NCBI GenBank assembly: GCA_003212335.1
Contig: QCQA01000001.1
Span: 186,001 to 250,000 of the forward strand
Direction: 5' to 3'
From: SAR86 cluster bacterium AG-447-A08
GTDB lineage: Bacteria > Pseudomonadota > Gammaproteobacteria > Magnimaribacterales > Magnimaribacteraceae
DNA: 64,000 nt
Both the position numbers and the translations under genes were made by a program. The notes under the pieces were generated by a model, which was not told the origin of the DNA, did not search any database, and saw nothing but the letters and a program-made list of their open reading frames with translations. Of this stretch, positions 39,295-44,996 are shown piece after piece. Positions within the stretch are counted from its first letter, which is position 1; every line of letters begins with the position of its first letter.

Positions 39295-40140
39295 CTATCT
39301 GCGAACCATAACCTTGGAATCCACATTTAGATCGCCATTCGGATCAACAAGATGTCCCGCTGGAAAAGACACAGCGGTGGCGGGCGTGGTTGTGTCCAGA
39401 CATAGAAAGTGGTTATTGTCGGCGTCGCCTAGATCTGCCAATGCTGCCGGACTCACCTCAGACCGAGAGCCATTGGCAGAGATGAGACTTACCTTATATA
39501 AGGTCCTCTGTGCCTCGCCCAACTCATCTCTATTGGGCAGTCTCACGCCACCTGTCCAGGTCACCCGCACCACCTGTTCGGTGGCAGTGGGGCAAGACGT
39601 TCCCCGACCTGACAGCGACCAGATATCCTTTGGCACCGCAGCAGCCAAAATAATCTCTGGGCCGGCTTCGAGAGGAATAACTGAGATTTGAGTACCACGA
39701 AAGTTCACCTGAGGACTGTCGGTGGCGTCTGAGAGTAAATCATCTACGATCAACACTTTAATTGGAGGGTCATCATCGGCATTACCGAATTCACCAATCA
39801 GCAAAACCGTCCGATTTTCATCCTTGTCTCCTGCTGGGCGTAGGGTGACACACATAGGTGTGTTAGTGGCTCCGGACTGCCTGACCACACGAAAGTCTTC
39901 AGCTTGCAGAGAATCTGGCTCAATGGTGTGACTTAAAACCACAGGCATACCGTCCTCGCCCCCCGCGCCTAAACACAAGACATTAGCACCAAAGGGCAGT
40001 TTGTTGTCTAACCCAAAGAAAGCTGAAAGCGGACGTGCTGATTGCTCCGCTGATAGTTGCTGAGTACCTTCTGCTACAACGAAGGATACATGAGCCAAAC
40101 CAAACAAGGCAGCCGCTAAACATAAACTATTCTTTTTCAT
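39295..40140 (-). CDS. exported protein of unknown function, high-GC island gene
   Basis: 281 residues with signal peptide KKNSLCLAAALFGLAHVSFVVA. The mature protein is beta-rich and acidic, with four or more cysteines (VLCLGAGG, PMCVTLRPAG, TSCPTATEQ, HFLCLDTTTP) spaced to form disulfides, and I do not recognise its family. Its ATG overlaps the dienelactone hydrolase stop (ATGA). Base composition is roughly 55% GC in long stretches, against about 36% around it, so it looks horizontally acquired. Probably periplasmic or surface-exposed. Confidence 0.68.
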   Translation of the reverse strand: MKKNSLCLAAALFGLAHVSFVVAEGTQQLSAEQSARPLSAFFGLDNKLPFGANVLCLGAGGEDGMPVVLSHTIEPDSLQAEDFRVVRQSGATNTPMCVTLRPAGDKDENRTVLLIGEFGNADDDPPIKVLIVDDLLSDATDSPQVNFRGTQISVIPLEAGPEIILAAAVPKDIWSLSGRGTSCPTATEQVVRVTWTGGVRLPNRDELGEAQRTLYKVSLISANGSRSEVSPAALADLGDADNNHFLCLDTTTPATAVSFPAGHLVDPNGDLNVDSKVMVRR

Positions 40141-40904
40141 AAATGACTACCAAAATATTGAATTACATTGTCCAGGGCCTCGCGTGTTGGATGCCCCGAT
40201 TGATCGACAAAATCTAGTGTTAATACAGAGTGACCTTTGCCCGGCAATGTTATCTCTTGAACTCTTATGTTGCCGTCATCATTAAAAGCGCGATGCACGC
40301 ATTTGGATTTTTCTTGCGTACACAGTGGATCATCCTCGAAACGTAAAACTCGCATGGGGCCTTTTGCATCGAGAGCGTTACGACTTTGTTCGATGTCATC
40401 AGACGACATATGCAAATTTCCCTGTTTGAAAAAAGGCATTGCAGGTTGTGATGCTACGGCTGCAAGGACACTGTCGTCACCAATGAGCTGTATCGCGAAG
40501 TTGCCCGTGAGGCACATGCCAATAACTCCTACGCCTTTAACACCCCGTTCATCCCTGACTTCTCTACAGAGCAGACGAACCCAATCGGCTATCGGACTCG
40601 ATCGATCGCTGGTCATTAATCGAAACTCCTTTCTGAGGCACATGACTCTAACAAGGTTGCCACCGATTGATGTTTTACCCAAAGGTCCGAATAAGTGTGG
40701 CATAACAACTTCAAAGCCAGCATTAACCAATTCATCCGCTAGAGACAGTGTTTCCTGACCGATACCCGGAAGCTCTTGGAGTAATATGACCGGGGCACCT
40801 GAACCTCTGCGATAGATATCATGTGTAATAAGATGTCCGTTAGACGCATGAGCCTCAAAGATCGTCTTTTGATAGTCACTGATCTGCGTTGCAGTATTTC
40901 CCAT
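40137..40904 (-). CDS. dienelactone hydrolase family protein
   Basis: About 255 residues, alpha/beta hydrolase with cysteine nucleophile: GVIGMCLTG (Cys), FEDDPLC (Asp) and GKGHSVL (His), plus the QELPGIG glutamate that activates the cysteine in dienelactone hydrolases. The ATG at 40902-40904 has AGGAG eight bases upstream; a longer GTG frame starting inside the guaA-like repeat is rejected. High-GC, unlike neighbours. It hydrolyses a lactone ring or related ester, as in chlorocatechol or muconolactone pathways, but no other pathway gene accompanies it. Confidence 0.85.
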   Translation of the reverse strand: MGNTATQISDYQKTIFEAHASNGHLITHDIYRRGSGAPVILLQELPGIGQETLSLADELVNAGFEVVMPHLFGPLGKTSIGGNLVRVMCLRKEFRLMTSDRSSPIADWVRLLCREVRDERGVKGVGVIGMCLTGNFAIQLIGDDSVLAAVASQPAMPFFKQGNLHMSSDDIEQSRNALDAKGPMRVLRFEDDPLCTQEKSKCVHRAFNDDGNIRVQEITLPGKGHSVLTLDFVDQSGHPTREALDNVIQYFGSHL

Positions 40905-40942
40905 TTGCTTTTCTCCTAGTATCTCGGCGCTTTGCGATCTAT

Positions 40943-40963
40943 TAACTACTCCCACTCAATAGT
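40943..40963 (-). repeat. guaA-3'-end repeat, copy 3
   Basis: Exact 21-bp copy of 43434-43454 (core CTCCCACTCAATAGT), including the guaA stop codon and three bases beyond it. Read on the minus strand it gives ACT ATT GAG TGG GAG TAG. It lies between the haem membrane protein gene and the dienelactone hydrolase gene, in non-coding DNA. Confidence 0.9.
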
Positions 40964-41014
40964 TACGTTACGAAAATAGCCTGTAAGATCAATACTTTAA
41001 AAAAGGCTTCAAAA

Positions 41015-41635
41015 TTAAACTTTGTAACTTTTTTGTAACTCTTTATCTTCATTCCTTGTTCTAAAAAAATGCAGCACTCTTAATGCAAAAGCACCAATGA
41101 TTATGCTGAATAACAAATTATATTCGACACTACTAAATTCTTCCCTTGTTATTCTACCTAGATAGGTAAACGCAAATATGAAAGCTATATAGTTAGCGCC
41201 TACCTTATGAATTAATTTCCATCTTTTAAATCCAATTTTTCTTACCGCATTATCATTTGATGTAAACGCCATGATATACATTGCTAAATAAGCTAAACCA
41301 CCACCTAAAACAGTATCAATATCGGGGTTTTGATTAGTAGTAACAAAAAAACTTGTCAAAGCGACTAGATGTATTGTGTGAGCTAAAGCAAAGGACAATC
41401 CGATATGTCTACGATTATTTCTTATAAAATTTGTTAGAGAATTAGATAAAAAATAATGTATCGAACTCGAAAGAAAACTAACTGTGAAAAAGAAAAAAGA
41501 TATTCGAGCTGTATATCTTGCCCAAAGAAATGTTTTGTCTTCAGTGTTATCAACTAAAAACAACCAAGCTATAAGCGTAATACTTATTGCTAGAACAGAA
41601 AGAAACCATTTTACTAAGTTATTGATTTTATTCAC
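41015..41635 (-). CDS. ferric-reductase/MsrQ-like haem membrane protein
   Basis: About 206 residues with six hydrophobic segments. Histidines in RRHIGLSFALAHTIHL and WKLIHKVGANYIAF fit the haem-binding pattern of the ferric-reductase-like transmembrane domain, MsrQ being the closest simple relative. No msrP methionine-sulfoxide reductase partner is adjacent. Start is uncertain: a TTG inside the guaA-like repeat (41650) or a GTG at 41633-41635; I list the GTG. The whole gene then lies between two guaA-like repeats. Transcribed away from guaA. Confidence 0.72.
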   Translation of the reverse strand: MNKINNLVKWFLSVLAISITLIAWLFLVDNTEDKTFLWARYTARISFFFFTVSFLSSSIHYFLSNSLTNFIRNNRRHIGLSFALAHTIHLVALTSFFVTTNQNPDIDTVLGGGLAYLAMYIMAFTSNDNAVRKIGFKRWKLIHKVGANYIAFIFAFTYLGRITREEFSSVEYNLLFSIIIGAFALRVLHFFRTRNEDKELQKSYKV

Positions 41636-41640
41636 TTTAT

Positions 41641-41654
41641 TCCCACTCAATAGT
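41641..41654 (-). repeat. guaA-3'-end repeat, copy 2
   Basis: TCCCACTCAATAGT, identical to 14 bp of the guaA terminus. Read on the minus strand an ATG-TCG lead is followed by ACT ATT GAG TGG GAA TAA, i.e. a regenerated T-I-E-W-E-stop with a synonymous last Glu codon and a different stop codon. Non-coding by itself except as the possible TTG start of the haem membrane gene. Confidence 0.85.
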
Positions 41655-41901
41655 CGACATGACTAGAACCCCAGTGTTTATAAGGGTTTCCAAGGTGGTT
41701 TTTACTAGTGTGTAGTAACTGTGTAGTAACTAGGGTAAATCTCCCCACCTTGTTGTTATCGTTTTTTACTGTCATATAAATATTTTACCATTTCCCTAAC
41801 TACACACTGTGTAGTTAATTTCTCTTCTTTTCTAGTCTAGCTTATAGATAAAGACTCCTCCCTACTCTTAACTATAAAGTTTGTTATAGAATAAAAAAGC
41901 T
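41655..41901. promoter_or_regulatory. leader of the HNH/integrase-repeat gene with iterated sites
   Basis: Non-coding 247 bp. It contains two head-to-tail TGTGTAGTAACT copies (41709-41720, 41720-41731), one ACCTTGTTGTTA (41748-41759) and a 21-bp palindrome with half-site TAACTACACA (41797-41817), so the half-site TGTGTAGT occurs four times. These are suited to binding by a repeat-containing DNA-binding protein; autoregulation by the downstream gene product or recombinase/Xis binding are both possible. The region also supplies the promoter. Confidence 0.55.
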
Positions 41902-43320
41902 ATGGCTAAAGATAGGAGGACAAATTTTCAGAAATTTAATCATCTATATAAATTATTTTGTCCAAATAAAGAATCCAGGTTTATATGTTTCTATTGCGGA
42001 CTGCCTGCTGGAACTGTAGATCATGTTCCTGCACTTAATAAAGTAGAAGAATTAAGAGCTGTATATGATTTACAGCACTATACAAAGGTTCCTTCTTGTC
42101 AAGAATGCAACGGCGTAGCTTCAGATGAGCCGCATGTTGATATATTCGAAAGAAGGAAATTTTTAAAGGACAAACTGCGTATCCGTTATAAAAAATACAT
42201 AAAACTTCCTGATTGGGAAGAAGATGAAATCGAAAGCTTAGGTTACTCCCTAAGGATGAATGTTGAATCAGCTATGTCCATTAAATACTTGATAGCTTAT
42301 CGCTTAACTTATGGAGAAGAGCAAAATATAAAAGCGAGCGATCTAGGGTATCTTCAATATGATCCGAGAAAAATATTTAAATATGCGAAGGCAGAAAACT
42401 GGGATAAATCCATTCAGAAAGTAAATGAAAAAGAAATTTCGCTTAAAGAAGTAAATGAAAGATTTAAGAAAATAGCAAAATTAAGGAACGAAGAAAAATT
42501 AATTCAAAAGAAGAATAAGAAAGAAGCAAACAAACTTAATAAGTTTTCCTTCATTGAAGCTAGAAGTTATGTAAGAAGTTTGAAATTAAGAAATGGACAA
42601 GGCTATAAAGAATGGAGAGAAAAAAACATAGGCTTACATGAAAGAGAGATGCTTCCACCCATCCCGCGAACTTTTTATGAATCTGAGTGGAAGGGTTGGG
42701 AAGACTTTATAGGAAACTCTTATACTTCTGCTTCCAAAGAATTTAGGTTACAAAGTAAAACCTTTTTAAGTTTTGATGAAGCAAAAAAACTTTTAGAAAA
42801 GCACAAAGAAGTAAGAAATTCACCTACTTACCTTCAATTTTGGAGAGAACACAAAAACATTTTACCTTCTGATCCTAAGCAATTTTATAAAAACAATTGG
42901 AATGGTTGGGAAGATTTTCTTGAAAAGAATTATAGGAATAAACAATATATTAAATCAGAAAATTTTCTGGAATTTGAGCAAGCAAAGAAACTTTTAAAGT
43001 CATTTAAATTAAAAAATGCTTCCGCTTACTCAATGGAATATCAAAAAATTTCAATCGATCTACCGAGTGTCCCAAAAAGACATTACGCTGATAAATGGAA
43101 TGGTTGGGATGATTTTTTAGGAAAAGACAATAAAGAATATATGTCGTATCAATTATTATCCTCCTTGGTAAAATTAGAGGGCATAAAGTCTAAAGAAGAA
43201 TATTTACTCTTTAGAAACTCCTCTGTTCAAAAAAATATCATTCCTTATGCTCCAGATATCGCCTATGAAAAAAATTGGAAGAACTGGAAAACATTTCTTG
43301 GAAGAAATTTAGGTGAATAA
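41902..43320 (+). CDS. HNH-like nuclease fused to four phage-integrase-type repeat units
   Basis: 472 residues, lysine-rich, no signal or membrane segment. N-terminal zinc/HNH-like motif: C29-x2-C32, DH at 40-41, C66-x2-C69-N70, an arrangement used by HNH nucleases such as McrA-type enzymes. A charged helical linker (about 80-210) follows. The C-terminal half has four repeats, about 213-272, 286-343, 353-408 and 414-469, each with an F-x-x-A-(K/R) helix, a Tyr/Trp-rich middle and a closing WxGWxDFLG-like motif, the pattern of phage-integrase repeat units (INT_rpt). No tyrosine-recombinase catalytic domain. Nuclease activity and function are inferred. Confidence 0.78.
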   Translation: MAKDRRTNFQKFNHLYKLFCPNKESRFICFYCGLPAGTVDHVPALNKVEELRAVYDLQHYTKVPSCQECNGVASDEPHVDIFERRKFLKDKLRIRYKKYIKLPDWEEDEIESLGYSLRMNVESAMSIKYLIAYRLTYGEEQNIKASDLGYLQYDPRKIFKYAKAENWDKSIQKVNEKEISLKEVNERFKKIAKLRNEEKLIQKKNKKEANKLNKFSFIEARSYVRSLKLRNGQGYKEWREKNIGLHEREMLPPIPRTFYESEWKGWEDFIGNSYTSASKEFRLQSKTFLSFDEAKKLLEKHKEVRNSPTYLQFWREHKNILPSDPKQFYKNNWNGWEDFLEKNYRNKQYIKSENFLEFEQAKKLLKSFKLKNASAYSMEYQKISIDLPSVPKRHYADKWNGWDDFLGKDNKEYMSYQLLSSLVKLEGIKSKEEYLLFRNSSVQKNIIPYAPDIAYEKNWKNWKTFLGRNLGE

Positions 43321-43365
43321 TTCAACATTCTTTAGGGTTACTTGTTGTGATCTATGCTTACTATT

Positions 43366-43377
43366 ACCTTGTTGTTA
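43366..43377 (+). repeat. ACCTTGTTGTTA element, guaA-side copy
   Basis: Exact 12-bp match to 41748-41759, near the opposite internal end of segment A. Two looser relatives (ACTTGTTGTGA at 43340-43350, GTTTGTTGTAAC at about 43377-43388) flank it. Likely arm-type protein-binding sites. Confidence 0.5.
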
Positions 43378-43433
43378 GTTTGTTGTAACTTTTTCTTAAA
43401 ATATTCAATAAAATCAATAACTTATAAGGTTAC

Positions 43434-43454
43434 TAACTACTCCCACTCAATAGT
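43434..43454 (-). repeat. guaA 3'-end attachment-like site (authentic copy 1)
   Basis: The true guaA terminus: codons for T-I-E-W-E, the TAG stop and three bases past it; the 21 bp are repeated exactly at 40943-40963. The guaA 3' end is a known integration site for tyrosine-recombinase islands in other Proteobacteria, which is the basis for calling this an attachment site. Confidence 0.8.
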
Positions 43455-44996
43455 AGCTGGTGGTTTACTAGAAATATCATAGGTTACCCGAGATACTTCA
43501 GGAATTTCATTGATAATTCTATTAGAAACTTTTTCTAAGAAAGTATGTGGAAGTTTAGCTGACTTCGCAGTCATAAAATCTATAGTTTCAACTGCTCTTA
43601 GAGCAATGACATATTCATAACGCCTTGCATCCCCTACTACTCCAACGGATTTGACCGGTAAAAATACTGCAAAAGCTTGACTTACTTTCTCATAGTAACC
43701 ACCTTTAACCAACTCATTAATAAAAATGTCATCAGCTAATTGAAGGGTTTGAATATAAGGTCTTTTGATTTCACCAAGAATGCGGACACCTAAGCCGGGA
43801 CCTGGAAATGGGTGTCTAAATAATATCTCTTTTGGCAAACCAAGCTCTAAACCAATCTTTCTGACTTCATCTTTAAATAGGTCCTTTAAGGGCTCTATCA
43901 CAGGAAGATTAAGATAGCTCGGCAGCCCTCCTACATTATGATGAGATTTTATTACATGCGCAGATCCATTCTTTGTGCCAGCTGATTCAATAACATCAGG
44001 ATAAATTGTCCCCTGTGCTAACCATTGAATTTTTTTATTTCTTTTTGCCTCTTTAAGAAAGACATCTATAAAAGTTTTTCCAATAGCTTTGCGTTTCTGT
44101 TCCGGATCTTTTTTTCCTTTCAAATCTCTTAAGAATTGATTACCAGCATTAGCTCTTTTTACTTTGATTCCAAATTTTCCTTTGAAGGTTTCCATGACTT
44201 GGTCACCTTCATTGAGCCTAAGGAGTCCATTGTCTACAAAGATACAGGTTAACTGATTGCCTATTGCTTTTGAGAGTAATGCTGCAACAACAGCAGAATC
44301 CACGCCTCCTGATAAACCTAATAATACTTCTTGGTCTCCTACCTGCTCTCTTATTTCACTTACCGCTCGATCAATTATATTTTTAGAATTCCACAAACCT
44401 TTGCACCCTGATATATCTCTAACAAAGTTTTTCAATATCTTCTTGCCTTGCGGTGTGTGGGTTACCTCAGGATGAAACTGAAGACCGAATATCTTTTTTG
44501 TTGGATGATGAAAGGCTGCTATAGGACTGTTGTTGGTTGTTGCGCAAACCTTAAAATCTTTAGGAAGTTTGGAAACATGGTCTCCATGGCTCATCCAAAC
44601 ACTGATTTTGTTATTGTTTATACCTTTAAAAAGTCCAGACCCTTTATTTTTCAATAATAGATCAGCATGTCCGAATTCTCTTTTATCCGCCAATTCAACT
44701 TTTCCTTTTAGTTGCTTGGCTATGGATTGCATGCCATAGCAAATACCAAGGAGTGGGATGCCTAAATCAAATACTTTGTCAGGTATTTTAGGAGAACCTT
44801 TTTGCTTAACGGTTTCTGGACCTCCAGACAGGATGATGCCTTTGGCGTTAAAGTCTTTAATAGATTTAAGAGAAGCACGATGGTTGTATATCTCGCAATA
44901 AACACCTAATTCTCTTACTCTTCTGGCAATGAGTTGTGTGTACTGTGAACCGAAGTCAATTATTAAAATCTTATCGGCAAGGATATTCTTTGCCAT
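43437..44996 (-). CDS. guaA: GMP synthase (glutamine-hydrolysing)
   Basis: Converts XMP to GMP using glutamine and ATP. 519 residues, full length. The class I glutamine amidotransferase domain has the nucleophile motif LLGICYGMQ and the [11 protein letters not shown] histidine/glutamate; the ATP-pyrophosphatase P-loop is [12 protein letters not shown]; and the C-terminal dimerisation domain ends with the highly conserved TIEWE. Located 5 nt after guaB in the same operon. Its last codons are the apparent integration target for the three segments downstream; the gene itself remains intact. Confidence 0.98.

Follow-up and report, generated by a model that had tools for sequence, protein, structure and literature searches.

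Genomic islands are known to use the 3′ end of guaA as an integration site: GIsul2 integrates at the core 5′-GAGTGGGA-3′ at this gene end, and a third, internal att site lets a sub-unit of the island move (PMC9376610). An array in SAR86 cluster bacterium AG-447-A08, analysed here within a 64,000-nucleotide stretch of DNA (the window), resembles GIsul2 and related guaA islands (PMC9376610) in that the core GAGTGGGA is duplicated at the borders and in that more than two att sites are present. GIsul2, however, is a single island that brings along an integrase, resistance genes, and transfer genes, whereas the window holds an array of single-gene cassettes, and such arrays are mostly without an integrase. 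Since the third att site of GIsul2 moves a sub-unit, the chemistry of guaA cassette movement has a precedent. Integron cassettes are likewise tandem units of one to few genes that share one chromosomal location and each end in a recombination site; unlike in integrons, no intI was seen beside the array, and its borders—repeated guaA ends, direct repeats, and IHF-consensus sites—are phage-att-like.

The protein encoded in the guaA-proximal cassette shares its two parts with different described families. With HNH_5/HNH endonucleases (PF14279, PF01844) and phrog_36777, the window protein has in common the order CxxC, DH, CxxCN in a small zinc domain and, in the model, a beta-beta-alpha order; it differs by Thr in place of the middle Asn, by a conserved extra helical tail (ERxxxL..YKK..W..E), and by a Pfam score below cut-off. 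With VPA1269/GmtZ of the gamma-mobile-trio (PF14882), it shares tandem units of 55–60 residues ending WxGWxDFLG. GmtZ-type proteins, however, extend into a recombinase-like portion and have GmtY as a neighbour, whereas the window protein has neither and carries a nuclease head instead; gmtY, gmtZ, and gmtX, which together make up the trio, are not what the window's single-gene cassette contains. Free-standing homing endonucleases, in which an HNH or GIY-YIG nuclease is joined to NUMOD-type modules, are alike in having a small nuclease followed by recognition-like modules within a mobile insertion, but the window protein has a different repeat family, cassette ends of integrase type, and no intron or intein. 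The window protein is thus a new domain combination of known kinds: HNH nuclease, INT_rpt protein, and guaA-integrating element. The reading preferred here, to which a probability of about one half is given, is that of a site-directed HNH-type nuclease carried as the passenger of a cassette that is moved in trans, and directed at foreign DNA or competing elements.

The integration gene, guaA (GMP synthase; 43437–44996, minus strand), is intact. The core at its 3′ end (ACTATTGAGTGGGAG; 43440–43454, minus strand) forms the proximal border of the HNH cassette. A second core with one mismatch (ACTATTGAGTGGGAA; 41640–41654, minus strand) serves both as distal border of the HNH cassette and as proximal border of a ferric-reductase-like cassette, and a third (ACTATTGAGTGGGAG; 40949–40963, minus strand) is shared in the same way between the latter and a cassette encoding a dienelactone hydrolase (DLH) family protein. 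The guaA end CTCCCACTCAATAGT is exact in the first and third positions and differs by one base in the second; no further copy of the last 15 bases of guaA (ACTATTGAGTGGGAR) occurs in the 1.54-Mb assembly. Between the first two cores, a single open reading frame (ORF; 41902–43320, plus strand, ATG start) is the sole gene of a 1.8-kb cassette, and the first-pass annotation was correct in calling it the only gene of a guaA-bounded cassette. The neighbouring cassette encodes a 211-residue ferric-reductase-like membrane protein (41015–41650, minus strand), the frame of which starts at the core, and the DLH frame follows at 40137–40955 (minus strand).

Beside the distal core of the HNH cassette lies an imperfect inverted repeat (GAACCCCAGTGTTTATAAGGGTTTC; 41666–41690), followed by two tandem copies of an 11-nucleotide, arm-type-like direct repeat (TGTGTAGTAAC; 41709–41730), and both features recur in other cassette ends. 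An IHF-consensus site (AATCAATAACTTA) is present at the proximal end of the cassette (43412–43424, plus strand) and again just past the second core, in the next cassette (41615–41627, minus strand), so that the HNH cassette carries all three features. Upstream of the ORF, at 41799–41815, there is also a perfect palindrome, ACTACACACTGTGTAGT, built of the word ACTACACA, which is that of the arm-type direct repeats. The ends of the HNH cassette are akin to those of cassettes in other genomes, matching over 91 bp at 94.5% identity in one (G059) and over approximately 160 bp at 76%–79% in two others (G040 and G074). A direct-repeat pair 9–13 bases apart with nine of nine matches was found in 33% of 27 distal ends, compared with 1.9% of random stretches. 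A perfect IHF-consensus within 110 bases after the core was found for 11 of 51 cores, at +13 to +16 or +69 to +71, against a background of 1.9% of random stretches and 16% of intergenic stretches, the latter set including these ends. The inverted repeat beside the core is visible by eye and weakly enriched (37% versus 19%). A further segment, TATTGAAAGTCATAAGT, located some 123 bases past the core, is conserved in seven of eight cassettes (L174, L176, L181, L182, L184, L193, L047, and L053); lying ahead of differing genes, it is possibly a shared cassette promoter.

These end features bear on one alternative, in which the repeats of the window protein would bind the arm repeats of the cassette ends while the head nicks DNA for excision or integration, or in which the bound protein would block rival integrases at guaA. 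The direct repeats and the palindrome upstream of the ORF fit such a role, as does the presence of INT_rpt units in GmtZ, the neighbour of the GmtY recombinase. Arm repeats are, however, common to cassettes that lack the protein, and no INT_rpt protein was seen in other cassettes or in the integrase-bearing islands of two relatives (G018 and G001), which leaves a role as helper or blocker of recombination improbable.

Comparable arrays extend across the order (L046–L073 and L157–L196, beside the window array at 40949–43454). In the window's family, the guaA-end pattern was found in 25 of 35 genomes, ten of which have at least two copies on one strand; in the order as a whole, two or more cores, usually within a few kilobases, are present in about 50 of 202 genomes (counted by eye from a table), and a reversed control pattern gave scattered single matches. 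Two genomes (G160 and G161) form an empty/filled pair, in which a 584-bp insert lies between two cores and the flanks are 92%–95% identical. In three more (G175, G173, and G169), the flank past the last core is shared (89%–97%) and the cassettes before the last core are unrelated. Individual cassettes also recur between families: DNA of the DLH cassette is 94%–95% identical in G018 and G029 of another family, with two cores bounding it in G029, and a 577-bp cassette encoding a 160-residue protein without a Pfam match is 99.8% identical in four genomes of two families (G172, L051; G173, L052; G075, L170; G088, L172). The guaA proteins of G172 and G173 are 93%–97% identical to that of the window, and those of G075 and G088 approximately 60%; near-identity of the cassette despite such divergence of guaA points to recent transfer. 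These are draft assemblies, in which a mis-join is possible in any single case, and the recurrence of sharing argues against this as a general explanation. No account of small guaA cassettes being exchanged across an order was found in the literature searched.

A source of integrase is suggested by relatives of the window's genome. In three of these (G166, L063:515–1792; G018, L122; G001, L123), the gene that follows guaA encodes a tyrosine integrase of 411–438 residues, a candidate helper of the cassettes; in G018 and G001 a serine resolvase lies behind the integrase. The window's genome, which is 88% complete, encodes two Xer-like tyrosine recombinases only, with no guaA-slot integrase in the cassette or in the assembly. 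Because an integrase fills the slot in three relatives and the window's genome has only these two Xer-like recombinases, the HNH cassette looks to be mobilised in trans. The slot integrase (P0002) had no relative in the plasmid collection or in viral contigs; cores in viral contigs are guaA ends or unrelated DNA, and no clear candidate for a phage that uses an att site of guaA type emerged.

The ORF encodes 472 residues, comprising an HNH-type zinc head, a helical linker, and four INT_rpt units. The HNH-type domain spans residues 28–136 (41983–42309, plus strand), with C29xxC32, D40-H41, and C66xxC69-N70 followed by the conserved helical tail, and the ORF translation places C29, C32, D40, H41, C66, C69, and N70 exactly where they had first been reported. 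In an alignment of the window protein with seven remote homologues (from phages S-CBP4, S-RIP1, and VLCpiS13d; plasmids of Propionimicrobium, Catenovulum, and Agrobacterium; and a class-mate genome), C29, Y31, C32, G33, D40, C66, and C69 are invariant, and H41 and N70 are likewise invariant in an alignment with nine phage-contig relatives. The window protein thus has the zinc ligands CxxC...CxxC, the catalytic-type DH, and the Asn after the last CxxC. The first-pass annotation had called this head HNH-like, and profile searches bear it out: the head matches phrog_36777 at 2.3e-12 in PHROGs, and, although the window protein itself has no Pfam HNH match at the cut-offs, a homologue from a Klebsiella phage (L140) passes those of both HNH_5 and HNH. 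Judged by sequence, the head is a member of a phage/plasmid family, one member of which passes the Pfam HNH cut-offs. Its best PDB profile match, the HNH endonuclease 4h9d, is weak (E 0.043) but has the C/DH/C/N residues in register. In a full-length AlphaFold model built from nine sequences (mean pLDDT 65.5, medium confidence), short strands lie around the initial zinc ligands, with a helix from residue 67; this predicted order is that of a beta-beta-alpha-metal fold, at medium pLDDT and with no PDB fold match. Neither the full-length model nor one of the repeats only matched a solved fold in comparison with PDB structures, and comparison with a viral library returned mainly sequence homologues that were already known. 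Two phage relatives of the head adjoin a terminase/maturase gene.

The classical middle HNH Asn is absent from the window protein, Thr61 standing at that place in the 4h9d alignment. This absence raises the alternative of a degenerate passenger, that is, a former nuclease that is now a non-cutting DNA-binding protein, or a gene being lost. Two homologues would fit such decay, one in G547 (L116) having lost the DH histidine and the Agrobacterium copy having R in its place. Yet the 472-codon frame is intact, all zinc ligands as well as D40, H41, and N70 are present, and the phage family also lacks the middle Asn while keeping the rest, so that degeneration seems rather improbable.

No recombinase domain was found in the window protein with Pfam, NCBIfam, PHROGs, or PADLOC, which agrees with the first reading of the sequence, and PADLOC and NCBIfam gave no match of any kind. 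A GmtZ or integrase fragment was considered and rejected, because the nuclease head stands where the recombinase region would be. Close homologues of the whole protein are limited to one partial relative in species-genome contigs, with none in viral contigs, and no full-length homologue was found in 203 genomes of the order or 369 of the class. Homologues of its parts occur in phages, plasmids, and gamma-mobile-trio elements, and the guaA loci of relatives have no counterpart, on which ground an ordinary core gene was rejected.

The four INT_rpt units were located with an independent hidden Markov model (HMM), made from only 13 units of three other, unrelated proteins with the window protein left out. 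They span residues 216–271 (42547–42714), 287–340 (42760–42921), 354–407 (42961–43122), and 412–467 (43135–43302), all on the plus strand, with i-Evalues of 2e-12 to 2e-9. The whole protein has an E-value of 6e-42, whereas the best-scoring of 200 shuffled copies reaches 0.078, and chance repeats were rejected on this ground; the four repeats first seen by inspection are thereby recovered from a model of other proteins. The match to Pfam INT_rpt (PF14882) is 2e-4 at 22 bits, just below the 26.5-bit cut-off. A search of the window's own genome with PF14882 gave nothing at threshold, yet the window protein has weak units, rendering this search uninformative. PF14882 figures in a 2021 modelling study as a repeat family of no known structure, its score being among the lower ones tabulated there (PMC8078820). 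In the repeat-only model obtained here (mean pLDDT 70.1), each unit is predicted as two helices of about ten residues and then short ones, the first unit reaching a pLDDT near 88.

The earlier supposition that such repeats are typical of the inside of integrases needs amending, as they are not integrase-specific. INT_rpt units are present in GmtZ-type proteins (L041 and L115), and a 592-residue protein of the 485-kb jumbo phage LR745208 (L138:3002–4780) has about five units with zinc-ribbon-like CxxC pairs and a homing-type HNH motif (ASVDRIDSDGAYTIDNIQWVH), read by eye and without a Pfam HNH match. In a betaproteobacterial protein of 675 residues (L006:5974–8001), units flank a DUF559/MTES_1575 PD-(D/E)xK domain on both sides, and two genomes related to the window's have one or more units behind an Mrr-like nuclease and helicase. 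A stretch of G169 (L076:6814–15013) combines an Mrr-like nuclease, a helicase, HA domains, and one INT_rpt unit near two DNA-adenine-methylase-like ORFs, and it resembles a defence locus. A Catenovulum plasmid protein (P0001) has the window-type HNH head and one recognisable unit, its repeats being divergent, and stand-alone INT_rpt proteins with no nuclease domain seen were also found. Because the common thread of these partners is the cutting or moving of DNA, INT_rpt looks like a portable DNA-recognition array.

Part of the cargo of sister cassettes is of restriction type. Cassettes at guaA carry a type II restriction–modification (R-M) pair, consisting of an EcoRI-type methylase and a GmrSD_N-HNH enzyme (G103, L179); a type III R-M pair (G171, L062); an MrcB_N-NucS protein (G093, L174); an HNH_2 enzyme (G011, L158); two DNA-methyltransferase-like proteins accompanied by one that has an HNH-like motif (G040, L165); a pair of proteins in the guaA-proximal cassette of G176, whose HNH-like motifs were read by eye; and a GIY-YIG protein (P0003; G018, L122:532–1593) that seems to have HTH-like repeats at its C-terminus. 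Further cargo includes a glyoxalase, an acetyltransferase, DLH, a Zeta-toxin-like kinase, and unknown proteins. Homing, exclusion, and anti-phage roles cannot be separated by sequence; the restriction-type cargo tilts the role of the window nuclease towards defence or exclusion.

Homing would mean cleavage by the nuclease of cassette-free guaA 3′ ends or att junctions, followed by repair that copies the cassette in, with no integrase being needed. A nuclease head with DNA-recognition-like repeats is the build of free-standing homing endonucleases, and no methylase accompanies the window nuclease; the homing-type motif of the jumbo-phage relative, the terminase/maturase neighbours of the two phage relatives of the head, and the GIY-YIG and HNH-like proteins in the guaA cassettes of G018 and G176 are all consistent with this. 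Set against it, most guaA cassettes of like build have no nuclease and a tyrosine integrase fills the slot of three relatives, making nuclease drive unnecessary for mobility; both ends of the cassette have att features of integrase type; insertion restores the core, so that the target would need to span core and flank; and the HNH–INT_rpt protein was found in no other guaA array, 38 further guaA loci having yielded neither another INT_rpt protein nor an HNH protein of this type. Homing-like drive is thus considered unlikely.

On the preferred reading, that of a passenger nuclease, a tyrosine integrase acting in trans would insert the short, integrase-less, single-gene cassette at the 3′ end of guaA and would also excise it. 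Once expressed, the four INT_rpt units would hold a specific DNA sequence and the N-terminal zinc HNH head would cut DNA, such that incoming phage or rival mobile elements with the recognised sequence would be cleaved and the host and its resident array protected. The sequence itself shows how the protein is composed, where the cassette begins and ends, that its ends are related to those of other cassettes, that cassettes have spread between families, that an integrase fills the slot elsewhere, and that sister cassettes have restriction-type cargo; that the protein cuts DNA, that its repeats bind a specific sequence, that the cassette is moved in trans, and that the role is one of defence or exclusion are each presumed in this scheme. 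Counting against it, the HNH cassette has no methyltransferase or immunity partner, unlike the R-M cassettes; no PADLOC model matches, Thr61 replaces the middle Asn, the structure models are of medium confidence, no published measurement of INT_rpt units binding DNA was found, and many guaA cargoes are not defensive.

The setting is a larger surprise than the protein, given that small guaA cassettes are exchanged throughout the order. As a tentative proposal, held at somewhat short of even odds, the guaA 3′ end of the whole order would be an integron-like platform, at which mostly single-gene, integrase-less cassettes of phage-att type circulate between families and are moved in trans by an occasional guaA integrase. 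Their cargo would be partly DNA-cutting and would include a nuclease aimed by INT_rpt, itself a portable DNA-recognition module for HNH, PD-(D/E)xK, helicase, and recombinase partners. INT_rpt arrays stand beside several unrelated domains that cut or move DNA, and would constitute a modular targeting system should every unit recognise a few bases. Bacteria with small genomes may trade single genes, restriction enzymes included, via guaA cassettes instead of classical integrons.
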